Source: Kribbella antiqua (GTDB lineage: Bacteria; Actinomycetota; Actinomycetes; Propionibacteriales; Kribbellaceae). From it: a stretch of 64,000 nt of DNA. Of the stretch, positions 8,774 through 21,399 are shown piece by piece. Under the pieces are notes generated by a model. The model had not been told where the DNA came from, searched no databases, and worked only from the letters and a program-made list of their open reading frames with translations. The stretch's first letter is position 1; each line of letters begins with the position of its first letter. Made by a program: the position numbers and the translations under genes. Location of the stretch: contig NZ_SLWR01000009.1 of NCBI RefSeq assembly GCF_004345665.1, positions 1 through 64,000 on the forward strand. Reading direction: 5' to 3'.

Positions 8774-9661
8774 TCAAACGGCGAGGGCCAGGGCGTGGCG
8801 CATCATGGTGGCGGTTTCGGTCGGTGTCTTGCCGACGCGGACACCGGCGGCTTCGAGGGCCTCCTGCTTCGCGGCCGCCGTACCGGACGAGCCGGACACG
8901 ATCGCGCCCGCGTGACCCATCGTCTTGCCCTCCGGCGCGGTGAAGCCGGCCACGTAACCGACGACCGGCTTGGTCACGTTCTCCTTGATGAACGCGGCCG
9001 CCCGCTCCTCGGCGTCACCACCGATCTCACCGATCATCACGATCGCGTCGGTGTCCGGGTCGTCCTGGAACGCCTGCAGCGCGTCGATGTGCGTCGTACC
9101 GATGATCGGGTCGCCGCCGATACCGATCGCGGTGGAGAAGCCGAAGTCGCGCAGTTCGTACATCATCTGGTAGGTCAGCGTGCCCGACTTGCTGACCAGC
9201 CCGATCCGCCCAGGCCCCGCGATGTCCGCGGGAATGATGCCGGCGTTGGCTCGTCCTGGGCTGATGATGCCTGGGCAGTTCGGGCCGATGATCCGGGTGG
9301 TGCCGGAAGCCTGCGCGGCGGCGAAGAACGCGGCGGTGTCGTGCACCGGCACGCCCTCGGTGATCACGACCACCAGCGGGATCCCGGCGTCGACGGCCTC
9401 GATCACCGCGCCCTTGGTGAAGCGTGGCGGCACGAAGATCACCGACACGTCGGCACTCGTCGACTTCACCGCGTCGGCGCAGGAGCCGTAGACGGGGATC
9501 GACCGCTTTGCGAAGTCGACCGACTGGCCGCCCTTGCCCGGAGTCACGCCGCCGACGATATTGGTGCCTGCGGCAAGCATCCGGCTGGTGTGCTTGGTGC
9601 CTTCCGAGCCGGTCATGCCCTGCACGACGACCCGGCTCTGCTCGGTCAGGAAGATCGCCAT
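8774..9661 (-). CDS. sucD: Succinyl-CoA synthetase alpha-type subunit (second SucCD-type CoA ligase)
   Basis: A 295-residue SucD homologue of normal length. The CoA-binding Rossmann part is at residues 1-120. The phospho-histidine is in KTMGHAGA (His250). The nucleotide-relay motif SKSGTLTYQ is at about 158-166. With the beta subunit upstream (13-base gap) it should couple NTP to acyl-CoA formation via phospho-His. The promoter carries the operator shared with the formyl-CoA transferase operon. It may therefore be an inducible paralog acting on succinate or on another carboxylate, not necessarily the TCA-cycle enzyme; this is inference. Confidence 0.9.
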
Positions 9662-9674
9662 CTGTCGACCCCTC

Positions 9675-10826
9675 TCAGTTCTGTGCGGCGAGTTGGGCGG
9701 CCCGGGCGGCGGCGCCGTCCATGGTGTCGACCACGGTCACCAGCGGGTGGTTGGCCTGGGCAAGGATCCGGCGGCCTTCGTCGACGTTGTTGCCGTCCAG
9801 CCGGACCACCAAGGGTTTGTCGGCCTGGTCGCCCAGCAACGCGAGCGCCTGCACGATCCCGTTGGAGACCGCGTCGCAGGCCGTGATCCCGCCGAACACA
9901 TTCACGAAGACACTGCGCACCTGCGTGTCGCCGAGGATGATGCCCAAGCCGTTCGCCATCACCTCGGCGGAGGCGCCACCGCCGATGTCGAGGAAGTTCG
10001 CCGGCTTCACGCCGTACGGCTCACCGGCGTACGCGACGACGTCGAGGGTCGACATCACCAGCCCGGCGCCGTTGCCGATGATCCCGACCGAGCCGTCGAG
10101 CTTGACGTAGTTGAGGCCCTTCTCCTGTGCTGCCGCCTCGAGCGGATCCGCGGCCGCCTTGTCCTCGAACCCGGCGTGGTCGGCATGCCGGTACGACGCG
10201 TTCTCGTCCAGCGTCACCTTGCCGTCGAGAGCCTCCAGCGAGCCGTCCGCCAGTTTGACCAGCGGGTTCACCTCGACGAGCGAGGCGTCCTCGCTGATGA
10301 AGACGTCGTACAGCCTCCGTACGACGTCCTCGGCGCCGGCCGGAAAGCCAACAGCCGCGACGATCTCGGCGGCCTTCGCTTCGTCGACGCCGACGGCCGG
10401 GTCGATCGGGATCTTGGCGATCGCGTCCGGGTTCGTGTGCGCGACCTCCTCGATCTCGACGCCGCCTTCGGTGCTGGCGATGCAGAGGTAGCTGCGCTGC
10501 GCGCGGTCGATCAGGTAGGAGAAGTAGTACTCCTCGGCGATGTCGGCGGCCAGTGCGAGCAGCACGCGGTGGACGGTGTGGCCCTTGATGTCCATGCCGA
10601 GGATCTCGAACGCCTTGCCCACTGCGTCCTCGGGGGAGGTTGCCAGCTTGACCCCGCCGGCCTTGCCGCGGCCGCCGGTCTTCACCTGTGCCTTGACCAC
10701 GACGCGACCGCCCAGCTCGGCGGCGGCCAACTCGGCATCGGCCGGGTCTTCGATCACCCGGCCGAGCGTCACCGGGACGCCGTACCGGGCGAAGAGTTCT
10801 TTGGCTTGGTACTCCATCAGATCCAC
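9675..10826 (-). CDS. sucC: Succinyl-CoA synthetase beta-type subunit (second SucCD-type CoA ligase)
   Basis: A 383-residue SucC homologue with an N-terminal ATP-grasp fold ([18 protein letters not shown] at about 43-60) and the C-terminal CoA-ligase domain ([20 protein letters not shown]). The GTG at 10826 follows GGGAGG. It forms the alpha2beta2 or alpha-beta ligase with the product of 8774-9661. An operator-like site at 10864-10878 lies 38 bases upstream. Substrate specificity cannot be read from the sequence. Confidence 0.9.
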
Positions 10827-10863
10827 GGAAGCCTCCCGGTCAGGATCGCTGTCTCATGGCGAC

Positions 10864-10878
10864 TGTATGCTGTATGCA
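10864..10878. promoter_or_regulatory. Putative regulon operator, site 2
   Basis: TGTATGC-T-GTATGCA, one mismatch per arm pair from a perfect 7-1-7 palindrome, 38 bases upstream of sucC. Its right half is identical to those at 10957-10963 and 13212-13218. Confidence 0.6.
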
Positions 10879-10948
10879 CATCGCGTCACAAGGCCTGATC
10901 CGCAACACCCCAGGTCTGGACAGCCGCCGGACGGTGGAGTACCAAAGG

Positions 10949-10963
10949 TCCATACGGTATGCA
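10949..10963. promoter_or_regulatory. Putative regulon operator, site 3
   Basis: TCCATAC-G-GTATGCA, 17 bases before the MFS transporter start at 10981, partly overlapping its leader. It shares CCATACGGTATGCA with the site at 13204-13218, 2.2 kb away. Confidence 0.62.
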
Positions 10964-10980
10964 GTAGTCAGGAGGCGACG

Positions 10981-12357
10981 ATGAACCACGCGACTCCACC
11001 GCCCCGGGACGTGCGTGACGTCTACGGCCGGCAGTACCGCATCGGTGAGGATGCGAGGGATCTGACCGGACACTCCCGGCGCTGGCAACTGTGGGCGACC
11101 TGGGCGTGCATGGTCGCGATCAGCCCACTGCAGTACTCCTTCGGCTCGGCCGCCATCGGTTTGCAGAACGGACGTGGCTGGGATGTCGTCGCGACCATGT
11201 GGCTGCTCGCTGTCTTCATCGCCTGCCAAGCCCTCATCGCGATCCCGGCCGCCTGGATCCAGCGAGTACGCCGGGCCACGCCGACCCAGCTGGTCGTCGC
11301 CGGTGGACTGCTCGCGGTGATCGGCATGGTGACGCTCGCCCACGCCGACAGCTATCCGCTCGTGCTCGTCGGCTACGCCGTGATCGGTGGAGCCGGCGCT
11401 GGTCTGGTGTACGCCGCCTGCATCACCACGGCCGCGCGCTGGTTCCCGGATCGGCGCACCGCCACGATCGGCTTTGTCACCGGCGGCTTCGCCGTTGGCG
11501 CGGTGCCGAGCATCGCATTGTTGACAATCATCCAGTCAGCAAATGGACAGCGGCTCGTGTTCGACCTCACCGCGGTCGTCGCCGTTGTCGTCGTACTGAC
11601 TGCTGGGGGACTGCTGAAGGATCCGCCGCGGCATTGGTGGCCGGCGGAGCTCGATGCGCAGGCATGGGCGATCGACCGGAAGCTGAACCGGAGCATCCCG
11701 CACAACGCGCCCGCGGTCCGGCACTACCGGCCGGCCGAGGCGATGCGCACCGGCGCGCTGCCGTTGATGTGGCTGACTCTGGCGTTGAGTACGGCGTTGT
11801 CGTTGTTCGGCATCGCGTTCGTCGTGAGCTATGCCGTCACCGCGGAGCTGGGGGTCGCGGTGGCCGGCTTCGCTGCCGGAATGCTTGCCGCGGTCAACGG
11901 TCTTGGCCGGTCGTTCGCCGGGCATCTGTCGGATCGGTTCGGCCGGCGTCGGGTGCTGGCCGCCGTACTGATGATCGAGGGGTTCACCCACGTCGGCCTC
12001 GTCGTCGCCGGTGAGGCGGGTGCGGGCTGGGCGTTCGTGGTGTGCGCGATGTTCGCCGGACTCGGCGGCGGCGCGTTCTACGCGATCATGGCGAACCTGG
12101 TGCTCGAGTTCTTCGGCGAGAACAGCCTGCTGCAGAACCAGGCGATCCTGTACTCCGCGAAGGCCGTCGGCGGACTGGTCGGCGTCGGCGTGGCTGGATC
12201 CTTGGTTGCGACGGTGGGTTATCGACCGTTGTTCCTCGGCGCCGGCCTGCTCGGCGTACTGACTGCTTTGACTGTGCGGTTCCTGAAACAGCCTGGACGA
12301 CCTGCGCTGCCGGTTCGGCCTCAGTTGGGTACGCCGGTCGCGGGGTCGGGCGAGTGA
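10981..12357 (+). CDS. MFS transporter, oxalate/formate antiporter (OFA) type
   Basis: A 458-residue major facilitator protein with twelve predicted transmembrane segments. It has an OFA-like central loop (KDPPRHWWPAE) and the MFS loop DRFGRRR after TM8. It is probably a plasma-membrane carrier for oxalate, formate or another small carboxylate. The ATG at 10981 has an excellent AGGAGG; the frame upstream belongs to the promoter. The operator at 10949 and the formyl-CoA transferase downstream support an organic-acid role. A specific substrate is inference, since OFA members also carry other monocarboxylates. The stop overlaps the next gene by four bases. Confidence 0.82.
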   Translation: MNHATPPPRDVRDVYGRQYRIGEDARDLTGHSRRWQLWATWACMVAISPLQYSFGSAAIGLQNGRGWDVVATMWLLAVFIACQALIAIPAAWIQRVRRATPTQLVVAGGLLAVIGMVTLAHADSYPLVLVGYAVIGGAGAGLVYAACITTAARWFPDRRTATIGFVTGGFAVGAVPSIALLTIIQSANGQRLVFDLTAVVAVVVVLTAGGLLKDPPRHWWPAELDAQAWAIDRKLNRSIPHNAPAVRHYRPAEAMRTGALPLMWLTLALSTALSLFGIAFVVSYAVTAELGVAVAGFAAGMLAAVNGLGRSFAGHLSDRFGRRRVLAAVLMIEGFTHVGLVVAGEAGAGWAFVVCAMFAGLGGGAFYAIMANLVLEFFGENSLLQNQAILYSAKAVGGLVGVGVAGSLVATVGYRPLFLGAGLLGVLTALTVRFLKQPGRPALPVRPQLGTPVAGSGE

Positions 12358-13285: not shown

Positions 13286-14995
13286 ATGGCCCAGACAGTG
13301 TCGGAGACCCACCCAGTCGCAGAGGTCAACGAGCCGGCGACCATCTCAGGTGGTCACTTAGTGGCCAAGGCCCTCAAGGCCGAAGGCATCGACGTGATCT
13401 TCACCCTCTGCGGTGGCCACATCATCGACATCTACGACGGCTGTGTCGACGAGGGCATCGCGGTGGTTGACGTACGGCACGAGCAGGTCGCGGCGCACGC
13501 GGCCGACGGGTACGCACGGGTGACCGGCAAGCCCGGCTGCGCCGTCGTCACCGCCGGCCCTGGTACGACGGACGCAGTCACCGGGGTCGCGAACGCGTTC
13601 CGGGCCGAGAGCCCGATGCTGCTGATCGGCGGCCAGGGCGCGCTGAACCAGCACAAGATGGGGTCCCTGCAGGACCTGCCGCACGTCGACATGATGACGC
13701 CGATCACCAAGTTCGCCGCGACCGTGCCACACACGGCTCGAGTCGCCGACATGGTGTCGATGGCGTTCCGGGAATGCTTCAACGGCGCCCCCGGCCCGTC
13801 CTTTCTGGAGATCCCGCGCGACAGCCTGGACAACTCGGTCCCGGTCGACCAGGCGACCGTCCCGGAGGCCGGCCGGTACCGCGCCTCCACCAAGAGCATC
13901 GGCGACCCGGCGAGCATCGAGGCGCTGGCCGATCTGCTGGTCCGGGCCGAGAAGCCGGTCGTGCTGCTCGGCAGCCAGGTCTGGACCTCCCGCGGCTCGG
14001 ACGCTGCTGTCGAATTCGCCCGGCAGTTGGACATTCCGGCGTACATGAACGGCGCGGCGCGCGGGACGCTGCCGCCCGGCGACCCGCACCACTTCCACCT
14101 GTCCCGGCGATACGCGTTCAACAACGCCGATCTGATCCTGATCGTCGGCACGCCGTTCGACTTCCGGATGGGCTACGGCCGCCGGCTGCCGAAGTCCGCG
14201 ACCGTGGTCCAGATCGACCTCGACTACCGCACTGTCGGCAAGAACCGTGACATCGACCTCGGCCTGGTCGGTGACCCGGGCGCGATCCTGGCCGCGGTCA
14301 CTCAAGCGGCGTCGGGCCGGCTGCGGAAGGCGGATCGCAAGGCCTGGTTCGCGGAGCTCCATGCCGAGGAGGACGCGTCGTACCAGAAGCGGCTGCCGCG
14401 GCAGCTGTCGGACGCGAACCCGATCCACCCGCTCCGGCTCGCGCACGAGATCAACGAGTTCCTGACCGAGGACTCGATCTACATCGGCGACGGCGGCGAC
14501 ATCGTCACCTTCTCCGGCGGCGTGGTCCAGCCGAAGTCGCCCGGCCACTGGATGGACCCGGGCCCGCTCGGCACGCTCGGCGTCGGTATTCCGTTCGTAC
14601 TCGCGGCCAAGTACGCGCAGCCGGAGAAGGAAGTGGTCACGCTCTTCGGCGACGGCGCCTTCTCGCTGACCGGCTGGGACTTCGAGACCCTGGTCCGCTT
14701 CAACCTCCCGTTCGTCGGGGTGGTCGGCAACAACTCCTCGATGAACCAGATCCGCTACGGCCAGGAGGCGAAGTACGGCCAGTCCCGCGGCCGCATCGGC
14801 AACACCCTCGGCGATGTCAGGTACGACGAGTTCGCGCGGATGCTCGGCGGATACGGCGAGGAGGTCCGCGACCCCAAGGACATCGGGCCGGCCCTGCAGC
14901 GCGCTCGCGAGTCGGGACTGCCGTCGCTGATCAACGTGTGGGTCGATCCCGACGCGTACGCCCCCGGAACCATGAACCAGACCATGTACAAGTAG
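13286..14995 (+). CDS. ThDP-dependent 2-hydroxyacyl-CoA lyase / oxalyl-CoA decarboxylase-like enzyme
   Basis: A 569-residue ThDP enzyme of the acetolactate synthase superfamily. The N-terminal PYR domain has the cofactor-activating Glu66 in RHEQ. A central domain follows, then the C-terminal PP domain with GDG at 455-457 and the NN that closes the ThDP motif about 27 residues later. The block [11 protein letters not shown] (125-135) resembles the MGAFQEFPQVE region of human-type 2-hydroxyacyl-CoA lyase. The YEEMDQ block of Oxalobacter oxalyl-CoA decarboxylase, with its Tyr-Glu pair, is missing. The C-terminus ends GTMNQTMYK. Expected reaction: cleavage or decarboxylation giving formyl-CoA. 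It is followed after 10 bases by formyl-CoA transferase. Acetolactate synthase is unlikely given this context. ATG 13286 follows GAGGAG. Confidence 0.8.
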
Positions 14996-15005
14996 GAGGA
15001 CCTGC

Positions 15006-16238
15006 ATGTCTTCTCAGAGGGCCCTCGAAGGTGTCCGCGTACTCGACATGACCCATGTGCAGTCCGGACCGTCCTGCACGCAGATCCTGGCGTGGCTCGG
15101 TGCGGACGTGATCAAGCTCGAAGCACCCACCGGTGACATCACCCGGCAGCAGCTGCGCGACCTGCCGGACGCCGACAGCCTGTACTTCACCATGCTGAAC
15201 TGCAACAAGCGCAGCATCACGCTGAACCTGAAGTCCGACCGCGGCAAGGAGATCTTCACCGACCTGGTGAAGGACGCCGACATCCTGGTGGAGAACTTCG
15301 CCCCCGGCGCGATCGACCGGATGGGCTTCACCTGGGAGCGGCTGCAGTTGCTCAACCCACGGCTGATCTTCGCCTCGATCAAGGGCTTCGGTCCCGGCCG
15401 GTACGAGAACTTCAAGGCCTACGAGGTGGTCGCCCAGGCGATGGGCGGCGCCATGAGTACGACGGGATTCGAGGACGGCCCGCCGACCGCGACCGGCGCG
15501 CAGATCGGTGACTCCGGCACCGGCATCCACCTGGTCGCCGGCATCCTGGCCGCACTCTTCCAGCGGACGCACACCGGCAAGGGCCAGCGAGTCACTGTGG
15601 CGATGCAGGAGGCTGTGCTCAACCTGACCCGGGTGAAGCTGCGTGATCAGCAACGGCTCACGCATGGACCACTCCGCGAGTACCCGAACGAGCACTTCGG
15701 CGACGAGGTGCCGCGGTCCGGCAACGCCTCCGGCGGCGGTCAGCCCGGCTGGGCGCTGCGGTGCGCACCGGGGGGACCGAACGACTACATCTACGTGATC
15801 GTGCAGCCGCCCGGCTGGGCTCCGATCGCTCAGTTGATCGGCCGGCCAGAGCTGGCCGAGGACCCGGACTGGGCGACGCCGGCGGCGCGGCTGGACAAGC
15901 TGGACAAGATGTTCGCGCTGATCGAGCAGTGGACCGAGCAGCACACCAAGTTCGAGGTGATGGACAAGCTCAACGCGCTGAACGTGCCGTGCGGGCCGAT
16001 CATGTCCACCCGCGAGCTGATCGAGGACGAGACGCTGGCCGACCTCGGTGCGGTGGTCGAGGTCAAGCATCCGCAGCGCGGCAGCTTCAAGACGGTCGGC
16101 TGCCCGATCAAGCTGTCCGACTCCCCGGTCCAGGTCGAGACCTCGCCGGGTCTCGGTGAGCACAACTCCGTCATCTACGGCTCGCTCGGCATCGACACCG
16201 CCGAACTCGAGGAACTCAAAGCCGCCGGCGTCATCTGA
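15006..16238 (+). CDS. frc: Formyl-CoA:oxalate CoA-transferase (class III)
   Basis: A 410-residue class III CoA-transferase that closely follows Oxalobacter Frc as I remember it. Shared blocks are [11 protein letters not shown] near the N-terminus, [14 protein letters not shown] (58-71), [17 protein letters not shown] (95-111), [11 protein letters not shown] and the C-terminal [12 protein letters not shown]. The catalytic aspartate that forms the acyl anhydride is Asp169 in [10 protein letters not shown], the same number as in Oxalobacter Frc. It moves CoA from formyl-CoA to oxalate or a related acid, which closes the cycle with the upstream lyase. The ATG follows AGGAGG at the end of the lyase gene. 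Specificity for oxalate is likely but not proven. Confidence 0.9.
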
Positions 16239-16258: not shown

Positions 16259-18403
16259 ATGACCTATGACAAGGCAGCAGTCCAGACCATCCTCGACCAG
16301 GCTCTCGCGGACGGCCGCACCTCGCTGAGCGCGCCCGAGGCCAAGCTGGTCGCGGACGCGTACGGCATCCCGACGCCGGGCGAGGGTCTGGCCACGACTG
16401 CCGAGGGAGCCGCTGCCCTCGCGGCGGAGATCGGCTTCCCCGTCGTGCTGAAGATCGTCTCGCCGGACATCCTGCACAAGACCGACGCCGGCGGTGTCGT
16501 GGTCGGTGTGGATTCGTCGCAGGCCGCCTTGGAAGCCTTCGCGCGGATTGTCGACAATGCGAAGGCCTACAAGCCTGATGCCGACATCACCGGTGTCCAG
16601 GTGCAGAAGATGCTGGTGACCGGCGGTGACGTGCAGGAGGTCATCGTCGGCGCGGTCACCGATCCGACCTTCGGCAAGGTGGTTGCGTTCGGGCTGGGCG
16701 GCGTGCTGGTCGAGGTGCTGAAGGACGTCACCTTCCGGCTGGCGCCGCTGACCGCCGATGAGGCGCGTTCGATGGTGGATGGGATCGGTGCGCACGAGAT
16801 GCTGGACGGCGTCCGCGGCGCGAAGCCGGTGGACAAGGATGTGCTGACCGATCTGATTCAGCGGCTGTCCGACCTGGTCACCGACTTCCCGCAGTTCGCC
16901 GAGGTGGATCTGAACCCGGTGCTGGCCGGGCCGGACGGCGCCACCGCGGTGGACTTCCGGATCATCGTCGACGCCGAGGCCGGTAAGCCGGTCGAGCGGT
17001 ACAGCCAGGAGGAGATCCTGACCGGGATGACCCGGATCATGAAGCCGCGCGCGGTCGCGGTGATCGGGGCCTCGAACGAGACCGGCAAGATCGGCAACTC
17101 GGTGATGAAGAACCTGGTCAACGGCGGCTACCAGGGCGACATCTACCCGATCAACCCGAAGGCAGACGAGATCCTGGGGCTGAAGGCGTTCCCGTCGATC
17201 ACGGACGTGCCGGGTGACGTGGATGTCGCGGTGTTCGCCGTACCGGCGAAGTTCGTCGGCAGGGCGCTCGAGCAGTGCGGGCAGAAAGGTGTGGCCGGGG
17301 CGATCCTGATCCCGTCCGGGTTCGCCGAGACCGGTGAGCAGGAGCTGCAGGACGAGGTCGTCGCGATCGCCCGCAAACACAACGTGCGCATCCTCGGCCC
17401 GAACATCTACGGCTACTACTACCTGCCGGAGAGCCTGTGCGCGACCTTCTGCACGCCGTACGACGTCCGCGGCAGCGTGGCGCTGTCGTCGCAGAGCGGT
17501 GGGATCGGGATGGCGATCCTTGGTTTCAGCCGGTCCAGCCGGATGGGGGTCTCGGCGATCGTTGGGGTAGGTAACAAGGCCGACATCGACGAGGATGACC
17601 TCCTGACGTTCTTCGAGGCCGACGACAACACCAACCTGATCGCCATGCACCTGGAGGACCTGAAGGACGGCCGGGCGTTCGCCGAGACGGCGGCCCGGGT
17701 GTCGAAGCAGAAGCCGGTCGTCGTGCTGAAGGCGGGCCGGACCGACATGGGCGCGCGGGCGGCCAGCTCGCACACCGGCGCCCTGGCCGGCAACGACAAG
17801 GTGTACGACGACATCCTCCGGCAGAGCGGCGTGGTCCGGGCGCCCGGGCTGAACGAGATGCTGCAGTACGCGCGCGGCATCCCGCTGCTGCCGACGCCGA
17901 AGGGCGAGAACGTCGTCATCATCACCGGCGCGGGCGGTTCCGGCGTACTGCTGTCGGACGCCTGTGTGGACAACGGGCTGACGCTGATGTCGATGCCGGC
18001 CGATCTGGACGAGGCGTTCAAGAAGTTCATCCCGCCGTTCGGTGCCTCCGGCAACCCGGTCGACATCACCGGGGGCGAGCCGCCGTCGACGTACCGGAAC
18101 ACGATCGCGCTGGGCTTGTCCGACGAGCGGATCCACGCGCTGATCCTGGGTTACTGGCACACGATCGTGACGCCGCCGATGGTCTTCGCGAAGCTCGTCG
18201 CCGAAGTGGTCGAGGAGTACCGCGCCAAGGGCATCGACAAGCCGGTGGTCGCCTCGCTGTCCGGTGACGTCGAGGTCGAGGAAGCCAGCCAGTACCTGTT
18301 CGACCACGGTGTGGTCGCCTACCCGTACACCACCGAGACGCCGGTCCAGGTGCTCGGTGCCAAGTACCGCTGGGCCCGGAACGCGGGCTCGCTCGGTTCA
18401 TGA
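16259..18403 (+). CDS. Fused ADP-forming acyl-CoA synthetase (beta-alpha order)
   Basis: A 714-residue acetate-CoA ligase (ADP-forming) family protein. The ATP-grasp/beta domain comes first (about 1-225; HKTDAGGVVVGV marks the relay His). The CoA-binding domain follows (RAVAVIGASNETGKIGNSV, about 260-280), then the alpha ligase domains. The phospho-acceptor is His505 in SSHTGALAGN. It makes an acyl-CoA from a free acid, CoA and ATP with release of ADP and Pi, or runs in reverse. It is third in the operon, 20 bases after frc, and could prime the CoA cycle by making the first acyl-CoA. The acid substrate is unknown. Confidence 0.86.
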   Translation: MTYDKAAVQTILDQALADGRTSLSAPEAKLVADAYGIPTPGEGLATTAEGAAALAAEIGFPVVLKIVSPDILHKTDAGGVVVGVDSSQAALEAFARIVDNAKAYKPDADITGVQVQKMLVTGGDVQEVIVGAVTDPTFGKVVAFGLGGVLVEVLKDVTFRLAPLTADEARSMVDGIGAHEMLDGVRGAKPVDKDVLTDLIQRLSDLVTDFPQFAEVDLNPVLAGPDGATAVDFRIIVDAEAGKPVERYSQEEILTGMTRIMKPRAVAVIGASNETGKIGNSVMKNLVNGGYQGDIYPINPKADEILGLKAFPSITDVPGDVDVAVFAVPAKFVGRALEQCGQKGVAGAILIPSGFAETGEQELQDEVVAIARKHNVRILGPNIYGYYYLPESLCATFCTPYDVRGSVALSSQSGGIGMAILGFSRSSRMGVSAIVGVGNKADIDEDDLLTFFEADDNTNLIAMHLEDLKDGRAFAETAARVSKQKPVVVLKAGRTDMGARAASSHTGALAGNDKVYDDILRQSGVVRAPGLNEMLQYARGIPLLPTPKGENVVIITGAGGSGVLLSDACVDNGLTLMSMPADLDEAFKKFIPPFGASGNPVDITGGEPPSTYRNTIALGLSDERIHALILGYWHTIVTPPMVFAKLVAEVVEEYRAKGIDKPVVASLSGDVEVEEASQYLFDHGVVAYPYTTETPVQVLGAKYRWARNAGSLGS

Positions 18404-18496: not shown

Positions 18497-19996
18497 TTGG
18501 ACGTCACACGCAAGACCTCAGAAGTACCCGAAGAGCCGACCGCGACGGCTGTGACCGAGCGGGTCTGGCGCGCGGGCCGGCTCGAACCGATGCCGATCCG
18601 GAAACTTCCGGACGCTCCGCCCTCGCTGCACATCCTCGGTCCGACCGTCTTCCTGGTCGCGCTGGGCGTCGGCATGGGCGAGTCCTACATGTGGCCCCGG
18701 CTCGTCCTGGTGTTCGGGCCGGACATCCGCTGGTTGTTCATGGTCGGCGTCACCCTGCAGGCGTTCGTGCTGCTGGAGATGGCCCGGTACGCGATGGCGA
18801 CCGGGGAGAGCATCTTCTTCGGCGCGGCCCGGATCTTCAAACCGCTGATGTGGTTCTTCTACGTCGCGGCGATCCTGATCTATATGTGGCCCGGCCATCT
18901 GTCCGCCGGCGCCGCCGCGTTCGAGGAAGTCAGCGGCATACCGTGGCAGGCGACGGCCTGTGTCGCGCTGATCTTCGTCGGCGTGCTGTTCAGCATGCTG
19001 TCGGTGATCTACAACTTCCTGGAGAAACTGCTCGGCCTGCTGATCGGCCTGCTGGTCGTCGGTACGTCGGTGATCGCGGCGATCGTCGGCAGCTGGGACG
19101 ATCTGGGGAACACGCTCTCGGGCATGTTCGCGTTCGGGTACTTCCCGGACAAGGCCCTGTCGGAGGCGTGGTTCCCGATCGTGGTCGGGTCGATCGCGTT
19201 CGCCGGCCCGTCCGGGATGCAGCAGATGTGGTACACCCTGCAGCTCCGCGACAGCGGGGCCGGCATGGGTGCCCACATCCCGAAGATCCGCGGTCTGCGC
19301 GCGGCCGCCGAGGCCGAGTCGATGCCGTCGCGCGGGTTCATGTTCGACACGTCGGACCCGGCGGAGATGCAGAAGTGGAAGGGCTGGCGCAAGTGGGTCA
19401 CCTTCGACGCACTGCTGCTCTTCTGGGGCATCACCATGCTGGTGACGATCTCGTTCACCGTACTGGCGATGTCGGCGGCCAGGACGAATCCGGATGTTGC
19501 CGGGCTGATCGAGGGCGGCGACCGGGAGGCCGCGCTGAAGGCGATGTCGGATGCGTTCGCCTCCGCCGGCAGCCCGATCCTCGGCACGCTGTTCTTCGGC
19601 TTCATCGCGCTGATCGGGCTGAACGCGACCCTCGGTCTGTTCGACTCGTTCTCCCGCGGCCAGGCGGACATGACGTACTACTTCGTGCCGGGAGCCAAGC
19701 GGTTCTCGATGTCGAGGCTGTACGCCGGATTCCTCTGGGGCGTGATCACCTTCGGGATCCTGATCCTGCTGTTCGGCCCGGCCGACGGTCCGGCCGGCAT
19801 CCTGGACATCCTCGCCTTCCTGTCCACGTTCGCGATGGGCGCCTACTGCGTCGTGTTGCTCCTGGTGAACAACAAGCTGCTGCCCAAGCCGATCCGGCCC
19901 GGGCCGGTGCGCAACGTGATCATCGGCTTCGGCGCGGTGTTCTACCTCGGCCTGCTGTTCTACAGCCTGGTTCGCTTCGGCGTGGTTGTGGGCTGA
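18497..19996 (+). CDS. Nramp-fold membrane transporter lacking the metal-binding motifs
   Basis: A 499-residue membrane protein with 11-12 transmembrane segments and an Nramp/SLC11-like (LeuT-fold) layout. The TM1 signature DPGN that binds divalent metal is absent; here TM1 reads ALGVGMGESYMWPRL (about 55-69). The TM6 MPH motif is replaced by GPSGMQQMWY (237-246). It is therefore unlikely to carry Mn2+ or Fe2+. The start is TTG at 18497, six bases after AGGAG. It lies in the lyase/frc operon, one base ahead of a small membrane protein. An organic-acid or metal-chelate cargo is inferred. Confidence 0.75.
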   Translation: MDVTRKTSEVPEEPTATAVTERVWRAGRLEPMPIRKLPDAPPSLHILGPTVFLVALGVGMGESYMWPRLVLVFGPDIRWLFMVGVTLQAFVLLEMARYAMATGESIFFGAARIFKPLMWFFYVAAILIYMWPGHLSAGAAAFEEVSGIPWQATACVALIFVGVLFSMLSVIYNFLEKLLGLLIGLLVVGTSVIAAIVGSWDDLGNTLSGMFAFGYFPDKALSEAWFPIVVGSIAFAGPSGMQQMWYTLQLRDSGAGMGAHIPKIRGLRAAAEAESMPSRGFMFDTSDPAEMQKWKGWRKWVTFDALLLFWGITMLVTISFTVLAMSAARTNPDVAGLIEGGDREAALKAMSDAFASAGSPILGTLFFGFIALIGLNATLGLFDSFSRGQADMTYYFVPGAKRFSMSRLYAGFLWGVITFGILILLFGPADGPAGILDILAFLSTFAMGAYCVVLLLVNNKLLPKPIRPGPVRNVIIGFGAVFYLGLLFYSLVRFGVVVG

Positions 19997-19997
19997 G

Positions 19998-20504
19998 ATG
20001 GCTGTCGAGGTGAAGCAACTCGCGGAGTTCTCGGTCCCGGCCGCCTCGGTCGGCGCCGCAGCGGGGCTGATCGCCGGAGGGCTGGCCGCGTTCGTCGGTC
20101 AGCCCTTTGGCTGGGCCGTGGTGACGGGCCTCGGGCTGGGGCTTCCGTTGATGGTGTTCGGTGCGGGATACGCCGTACTGATCGGGTTCGGCAAGGTTCC
20201 AGCCGGGGTGTTCGCACCGGCCGCGGTGTACTGGGTGATCGGGTTTCCGCTAGCTCTGCTGGTGCATTCGGTGGTGACCGCGTGGGTGGTCACCGGTTCA
20301 CCGGGGCTGCCGCCGGAGCCGTGGAAGTTCCTGGCCTTCCGCGCACTGGTGAGCATGGGCTTCGCGATCGGTTTCCTGTGGATGCACGAACAACTCGGCC
20401 GCCACTGGTGGCCGCGCATCCTCGATCACAACGTCTACGCACGCCGTACGGTCGAGCAATACGTCCATCTCGCCAGCACCTTCAAGGCTCGCAAGTCGGC
20501 GTGA
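19998..20504 (+). CDS. Small integral membrane protein, partner of the Nramp-like transporter
   Basis: A 168-residue protein with about four hydrophobic segments (residues 15-35, 40-65, 75-100, 105-125) and a basic, cytosolic C-terminal tail (RTVEQYVHLASTFKARKSA). Its ATG begins one base after the transporter stop, so it is co-translated and may be an accessory subunit. I do not recognise the family. Confidence 0.75.
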   Translation: MAVEVKQLAEFSVPAASVGAAAGLIAGGLAAFVGQPFGWAVVTGLGLGLPLMVFGAGYAVLIGFGKVPAGVFAPAAVYWVIGFPLALLVHSVVTAWVVTGSPGLPPEPWKFLAFRALVSMGFAIGFLWMHEQLGRHWWPRILDHNVYARRTVEQYVHLASTFKARKSA

Positions 20505-20545: not shown

Positions 20546-21298
20546 TCAGTTCGTCGTACGGCGGCGTCGTGGGCGCGTCGTGGTCGGCGCTGGGGTGGTG
20601 GGTTCGTTGGCGGTGGCGGCTTGGAGGTCGTGGTAGGCCTTGCGGGTGTGTTCGGTGTGCTCGCGCATGATCTGCGCGGCCTTGTCCTCGTCGCCGTCGC
20701 CGATCGCCTTCACCAGCCGGTTGTGCTCCCGCCAGGACGCGGCACCGCGGACCGGGGCGACGGGCGTGTAGTACCAGCGGACCCGGCGGTCGACCTGGGC
20801 GGCGAAGTCCACCAGGAACCGATTGCCGGACATCTGCGTGATCAGGCTGTGCAGCTCGCCATTCGTCCGTACGGCGCCGTCGATGTCGCCGGACTCCTGG
20901 TACGTCGTACCGACCTTGCAGAGCTCCTTGAGCTTGGCCACGTCGTCCTTGGTGGCATGCCGGGCCGCGAGCCGGGCGGACTCGGACTCCAGCGCCGCAC
21001 GGGCCGCCAGCAGTTGGTCGACCTCATCCTCGGCCGGGACGTGGACCATCGCGCCGAAGCCGGGCCGCAGGTCCACCCAGCCCTCGTTGTTGAGCCGCTG
21101 GAGCGCTTCGCGGACCGGTTGGCGGGAGACGCCGAGCATGCCGGCCAGCTCGACCTCGACCAGGTGCCTGCCGCGCTCGAGAGTACCGTCGATGATCATC
21201 TCGGTCAGGGCCTCGTACACGGACTCGCGCAGCGGCGTCGGCCGCTTGACGTGCCGCACACCGGGAGAGACATCCGTACCTGCGCTGATGGTGGTCAT
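20546..21298 (-). CDS. GntR-family regulator, FadR/FCD subfamily
   Basis: A 250-residue regulator. The winged helix spans about residues 20-85 (ELAGMLGVSRQPVREALQRL is the recognition region). An all-helical FCD effector domain follows (about 95-215) with Asp/His metal ligands plausible in NGELHSLI and REHNRLV. The tail is basic and Thr/Pro/Arg-rich. The ATG at 21298 follows GGAAGGACC. FCD regulators sense carboxylic acids. Position and the GTATGCA/GTCTACC-type operators nearby make it the leading candidate to control the formyl-CoA island. A 37-bp perfect palindrome precedes its start. Confidence 0.9.
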   Translation of the reverse strand: MTTISAGTDVSPGVRHVKRPTPLRESVYEALTEMIIDGTLERGRHLVEVELAGMLGVSRQPVREALQRLNNEGWVDLRPGFGAMVHVPAEDEVDQLLAARAALESESARLAARHATKDDVAKLKELCKVGTTYQESGDIDGAVRTNGELHSLITQMSGNRFLVDFAAQVDRRVRWYYTPVAPVRGAASWREHNRLVKAIGDGDEDKAAQIMREHTEHTRKAYHDLQAATANEPTTPAPTTTRPRRRRTTN

Positions 21299-21317
21299 GA
21301 GGTCCTTCCCGGAACTA

Positions 21318-21354
21318 TGTTGGCACTTGGTAGACAGTCTACCAAGTGCCAACA
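21318..21354. promoter_or_regulatory. 37-bp perfect palindromic operator of the GntR gene
   Basis: TGTTGGCACTTGGTAGAC, one central A, then the exact reverse complement. The inner TTGGTAGAC-A-GTCTACCAA has the form of an FCD-GntR operator. It lies 20-56 bases upstream of the GntR start, which suggests autoregulation. Confidence 0.8.
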
Positions 21355-21399
21355 CCTGACATATGTTGTTCGAGCGCCTCAACGTGCGGCGCGTTGTGG

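Follow-up and report, generated by a model that had tools for sequence, protein, structure and literature searches.

A candidate two-gene oxalate carrier in Kribbella and related actinomycetes: an Nramp-fold protein with a remodelled metal site and its obligate small membrane partner

What does a protein carry that has the fold of a metal transporter, lacks the motifs with which that fold binds metal and is encoded next to presumed oxalate-degrading enzymes? The question is raised by a locus of Kribbella antiqua that lies in a stretch of 64,000 nucleotides, which was analysed as a whole and is called the window here. The gene termed NRL (18497..19996, plus strand) encodes an Nramp-fold carrier of 499 amino acids; it starts with TTG at 18497, with AGGAG seven bases upstream, and ends with TGA. 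After a gap of one base it is followed by SMP (19998..20504, plus strand, ATG to TGA), which encodes a small membrane protein of 168 amino acids with four helices.

Three enzyme genes precede the pair on the same strand. OXC (13286..14995, plus) encodes a TPP enzyme of the oxalyl-CoA decarboxylase or 2-hydroxyacyl-CoA lyase class, FRC (15006..16238, plus) a formyl-CoA transferase (TIGR03253, 663 bits against a cut-off of 504) and ACS (16259..18403, plus) an ADP-forming acyl-CoA ligase that is kept between FRC and NRL. The order OXC-FRC-ACS-NRL-SMP is interrupted by gaps of 10 (OXC/FRC), 20 (FRC/ACS) and 93 bases (ACS/NRL). OXC scores below the cut-offs of all specific curated models, including that for oxalyl-CoA decarboxylase, so its reaction is deduced from the neighbouring genes, a point that weighs against an oxalate cargo for NRL. 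The closest solved structures of OXC are 2-hydroxyacyl-CoA lyases. The operon is flanked by a convergent gene for a GntR/FCD-family regulator (20546..21382, minus), a homologue of which is found near NRL in 69 of the 80 best loci, and upstream by a gene for an OFA/OxlT-like MFS permease (10540..12357, plus, as called; the true start lies downstream).

NRL matches the NCBIfam model NF037982 (Nramp_1) with 466.6 bits at a cut-off of 50. No Pfam family is matched, PF01566 reaching 15.3 bits and thus staying below its cut-off of 29.8, and a direct phmmer search of NRL against solved structures found nothing. A profile of the NRL family, searched against solved structures, matches Nramp structures only, with DraNramp at the top. 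The fold was modelled with AlphaFold on a Kribbella relative (L012, NRL 93% identical) as the naturally in-frame NRL-SMP fusion that results when the stop codon is read as glycine. This read-through model (pLDDT 86.7) superimposes on DraNramp (8e60) with a target TM-score of 0.83 and on EleNRMT with 0.77-0.78, and its first and sixth transmembrane helices are broken at residues 58-59 and 235-239, respectively.

At these breaks lie the altered motifs. In TM1, GMGESYMW (18671..18694, plus; residues 59-66) stands in place of DPGN, and in TM6, GPSGMQQMWY (19205..19234, plus; residues 237-246), preceded by A in the AGPSG stretch, takes the place of the MPH region. The profile alignment sets D56-P-G-N59 of DraNramp on G59-M60-G61-E62 of NRL; a MAFFT alignment of TM1 is shifted by one residue relative to it, and in both NRL has no equivalent of the Asp ligand, with E62 falling within the site. 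E62 is invariant in the NRL clade and in the NF037982 relatives and stands where canonical Nramp proteins have their Asn ligand. Judged from these alignments, one former ligand position is thus substituted by an acidic residue, not simply lost. R68, H134 and most of TM6 residues 239-247 distinguish NRL from the NF037982 relatives, beside which it forms a clade of its own in the tree (support 100/100). NRL falls outside canonical Nramp membership on two defining motifs, with the fold kept. A sequence-only reading of this DNA had claimed the replacement of DPGN and MPH by the two motifs, the location of the gene in a formyl-CoA operon and the presence of a 168-residue membrane protein one base downstream. 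The first is borne out by alignment and by the helix breaks of the model, the second by the FRC score and the third by the open reading frame of SMP; structure prediction, which that reading had proposed as a check, returned the Nramp fold.

Is SMP a part of the transporter or a bystander? In all of the 80 best relatives of NRL, which we assign to Kribbella, Pseudonocardiaceae, Micromonosporaceae and Streptosporangiaceae, SMP lies directly 3' of NRL, mostly overlapping it (ATGA) or separated by 1-3 bases. Among 395 genomes sampled evenly from the class, 15 have NRL, and these 15 and no others have SMP; SMP also stays with NRL in three different genomic settings. The pairing is kept far beyond chance, and chance adjacency was rejected. 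Near other NF037982 relatives SMP was not found. Small open reading frames also come after NF037982 genes of Haloarcula (L120 7545-7991, L122 7578-8404); their sequences do not resemble that of SMP. The AlphaFold model of SMP (pLDDT 96.4) consists of four long membrane helices. Searches of SMP against Pfam and NCBIfam found no family and its model gave no fold match below E 0.9 among solved structures; hence we do not propose that it is homologous to any known small subunit.

The cargo is suggested by the enzymes that accompany the pair. OXC, FRC, ACS and NRL are contiguous in 72 of the 80 best loci, and FRC is present in 77. Within the class sample FRC occurs in 34 of 395 genomes, among them all 15 with NRL (set-overlap p-value 3.6e-18, computed ignoring shared ancestry and not usable as a probability), and the 14 sampled NRL loci other than the window all show the full OXC-FRC-ACS-NRL-SMP arrangement. 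A second context is provided by five genomes from the phylum, probably Rubrobacterales. Here NRL (63-65% identical) and SMP come after a cluster of three genes of another kind. The best match of its alpha subunit is Moorella oxalate oxidoreductase (355 bits), followed by pyruvate:ferredoxin oxidoreductase (224 bits), and the beta subunit scores 309 against 199 bits for the same two enzymes. Among NCBIfam models those for oxalate oxidoreductase subunits fit the cluster best, though below cut-off. All five genomes keep the residues that correspond to Arg31, Arg109 and Asp112 in the solved structure of the alpha subunit, the substrate-selecting residues of oxalate oxidoreductase. Two unrelated oxalate-degrading systems are therefore associated with NRL-SMP, and since oxalate is their common substrate and formate is not a common product, the genome comparison points to oxalate as the likely cargo. 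Three second copies of NRL-SMP in Kibdelosporangium (L061, L072, L075) speak against this assignment, as they lie away from oxalate genes; their neighbours are glycerol kinase, IclR, Rieske and glutamine-synthetase-like genes.

Based on the conserved gene neighbours, we propose, with a probability of about 0.7, that NRL and SMP are the two subunits of a secondary carrier through which oxalate is brought in for the co-encoded enzymes. NRL would be the transport subunit, its Nramp-fold metal site remodelled to bind a small dicarboxylate, with TM1 GMGE, TM6 AGPSG and the clade-specific R68 and H134 as candidate binding residues. SMP would be a four-helix membrane subunit on which the carrier depends for folding, stability or activity. 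The cargo, the direction of transport, the binding residues and the formation of a complex are what we infer. The conserved gene order gives good support to an organic-acid cargo and a two-gene carrier as such. The sequence-only reading had suggested a new cargo class and perhaps a two-subunit carrier, and had named co-occurrence of the two genes as a check. Co-occurrence is what the genome sample and the best relatives display; the invariable gene pairing speaks for two subunits, a physical NRL-SMP complex being the conjectural part of that claim. As to the cargo class, the organic acid is favoured by gene order, while to call it wholly new goes too far: a paraphyletic outgroup of Nramp-related proteins that lack both DPGN and MPH is already recognised (PMC12873925, PMC10606218), and Corynebacterium glutamicum reportedly depends on PxpT, which belongs to this broad family, to grow on 5-oxoproline (PMC13274462).

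What stands in for NRL-SMP where it is missing? FRC without NRL was encountered in 19 sampled genomes, and 13 of these loci were read. In five, all from one actinomycete genus, OXC-FRC-ACS is followed by an OFA-family MFS permease at the position of NRL-SMP; the best solved match of these five permeases is OxlT, and R272 and K355 are kept. Four loci of Pseudonocardiaceae type carry a distant Nramp-family protein without SMP at the NRL position (L166 6742-8256, L167 12144-13706, L168 12438-13985, L169 4682-6220), with 72-76 bits to PF01566 and TM1 GASH in place of DPGN. In one locus the contig stops after ACS, and the remaining three contain a divergent FRC without ACS.

The permease upstream in the window also keeps the NGxxR and SAK residues that align with OxlT R272 and K355, and MFS genes are located near NRL in 42 of the 80 loci. 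NRL-SMP may therefore not be the strain's only oxalate carrier, which counts against the oxalate-import reading of NRL-SMP. In an alternative that builds on these residues, oxalate would enter through the OxlT-like permease, and NRL-SMP would serve to export formate or a different product. It would agree with the use of OxlT reported for Kribbella oxalotrophs (Robertson and Meyers 2022, to the extent that this work is cited in PMC10192776) and is nevertheless very improbable, because 38 of the 80 NRL loci have no MFS gene nearby and because the oxalate oxidoreductase context should yield CO2, not formate, and yet retains NRL-SMP.

A further gene brings metals back into the argument. A TerC-family gene (PF03741) lies directly after SMP in 60 of the 80 loci, at a median of 45 bases past the end of the SMP match (for example L045 9984-11084), and in 9 of the 14 loci of the class sample. 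The same position is taken in all five Rubrobacterales-type loci (for example L131 1800-3187) by a TerC protein of a different subfamily, which shares no BLAST similarity with the first and was probably recruited independently. TerC is absent from the five OxlT-MFS loci and occurs in one of the 13 FRC loci without NRL, a locus that has another Nramp-like protein; the difference between 9/14 and 1/13 corresponds to a Fisher p of 0.004, uncorrected for kinship. No TerC gene was found near the other NF037982 relatives examined. At this place TerC is missing from the window and from most Kribbella loci, and five TerC genes are located elsewhere in the genome.

Calcium oxalate is the soil form of oxalate. 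NRL-SMP might take up oxalate as a neutral complex with a metal (Ca, Mg or Mn) or couple oxalate uptake to a divalent cation, TerC then expelling the metal. This idea is a special case of the oxalate carrier and is considered possible but on balance unlikely. It draws on the distribution of TerC, on the invariance of E62 at a former ligand position and on the Mn efflux activity of TerC proteins (PMC10550928). It is weakened by the loss of the DPGN Asp and of MPH, by the loci without adjacent TerC, the window included, by the lack of TerC near the other NF037982 relatives examined and by the second role of TerC proteins, the metalation of exported enzymes (PMC10550928). Slightly more doubtful still is the full module of NRL, SMP and TerC for metal-oxalate uptake and metal recycling, in which oxalate would enter with a chelated divalent metal that TerC would return; if true, insoluble metal oxalates would become a carbon source. 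The suggestion of the sequence-only reading that the cargo could be an acid-metal chelate thus gains some support from the TerC gene of most relatives, a gene missing at this place in the window.

NRL-SMP could instead be an importer of Mg2+ or Mn2+ that supplies cofactors to the TPP and ligase enzymes. The Nramp fold and the family name, divalent metal transporter, point this way, as do relatives with metal substrates: EleNRMT-type proteins transport Mg2+ (PMC4072509), and YcsG of B. subtilis, a homologue of PxpT, is reported to be a Mn2+ importer (PMC10448178). This explanation is improbable given that DPGN and MPH are absent, that a carboxylate permease takes the place of the gene in other species and that an MntH with DPGN is encoded elsewhere in the genome. 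It also counts against it that no Rfam match, including metal riboswitches such as the M-box, was obtained between positions 9500 and 22000. Two narrower candidates were rejected: NRL as the MntH of the genome, given the separate DPGN protein, and a riboswitch-controlled Mg2+ transporter, given the lack of an RNA element in that interval.

The NF037982 name is not supported by the gene context of NRL and looks wrong for other acid-gene-linked members as well. Proteins of this family adjoin genes for lactate, tetronate-type (PdxA/acid-sugar kinase), galactarate/altronate dehydratase and glyoxylate (isocitrate lyase) metabolism (L119, L120, L121, L133, L134, L135, L141). In one genome another NF037982 protein has an SMP-30/gluconolactonase gene as its neighbour (L124 8466-9677, minus), and a YcsG/PxpT-like protein is encoded next to a pxpA-like gene of the LamB/YcsF type (L125 7628-8980, minus). 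Such contexts suggest that many proteins annotated as Nramp family divalent metal transporters carry organic acids.

Within the open-licence literature, no paper was found that describes an Nramp-type protein taking part in oxalate degradation. What appears to be new is the connection with oxalate, the obligate partner gene and the association with TerC; the kind of protein is known. If the oxalate-carrier reading is true, a metal-transporter fold has been turned into an acid importer, and a second subunit has been added to a fold whose characterised members act alone. Aerobic actinomycete oxalate degraders would then gain a carrier with a fold known from metal transport, beside or instead of OxlT. 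The soil oxalate-carbonate pathway is governed by oxalate uptake. NRL-SMP would also be a naturally occurring case on which to test how a site for metals is converted into one for acids.

Comparison with known systems places NRL-SMP among four groups of carriers. With canonical Nramp/SLC11 proteins such as MntH and DraNramp, which provide the best profile match among solved structures, NRL shares the fold and the broken TM1 and TM6; unlike them, it lacks DPGN and MPH, is linked to oxalate genes and comes with an obligate SMP. EleNRMT and the Nramp-related outgroup likewise combine the Nramp fold with the loss of the canonical metal motifs, but the profile match of EleNRMT is weaker than that of DraNramp and the tie to oxalate enzymes is particular to NRL. 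NRMT genes are accompanied by an MgtE-N-like ancillary open reading frame where NRL has SMP, and some, though not all, have an M-box riboswitch, whereas none was found at NRL. PxpT and YcsG resemble NRL as Nramp-family proteins in an organic-acid operon; they differ in that no SMP is reported for them and in that they seem to fall on a separate, distant branch of the tree, where the YcsG-like entry has a very long branch and an unsure placement. The oxalate:formate antiporter OxlT (OFA family, MFS), finally, has the same proposed cargo and an OFA relative at the NRL-SMP position in another genus, yet it acts as a single subunit with an unrelated MFS fold.
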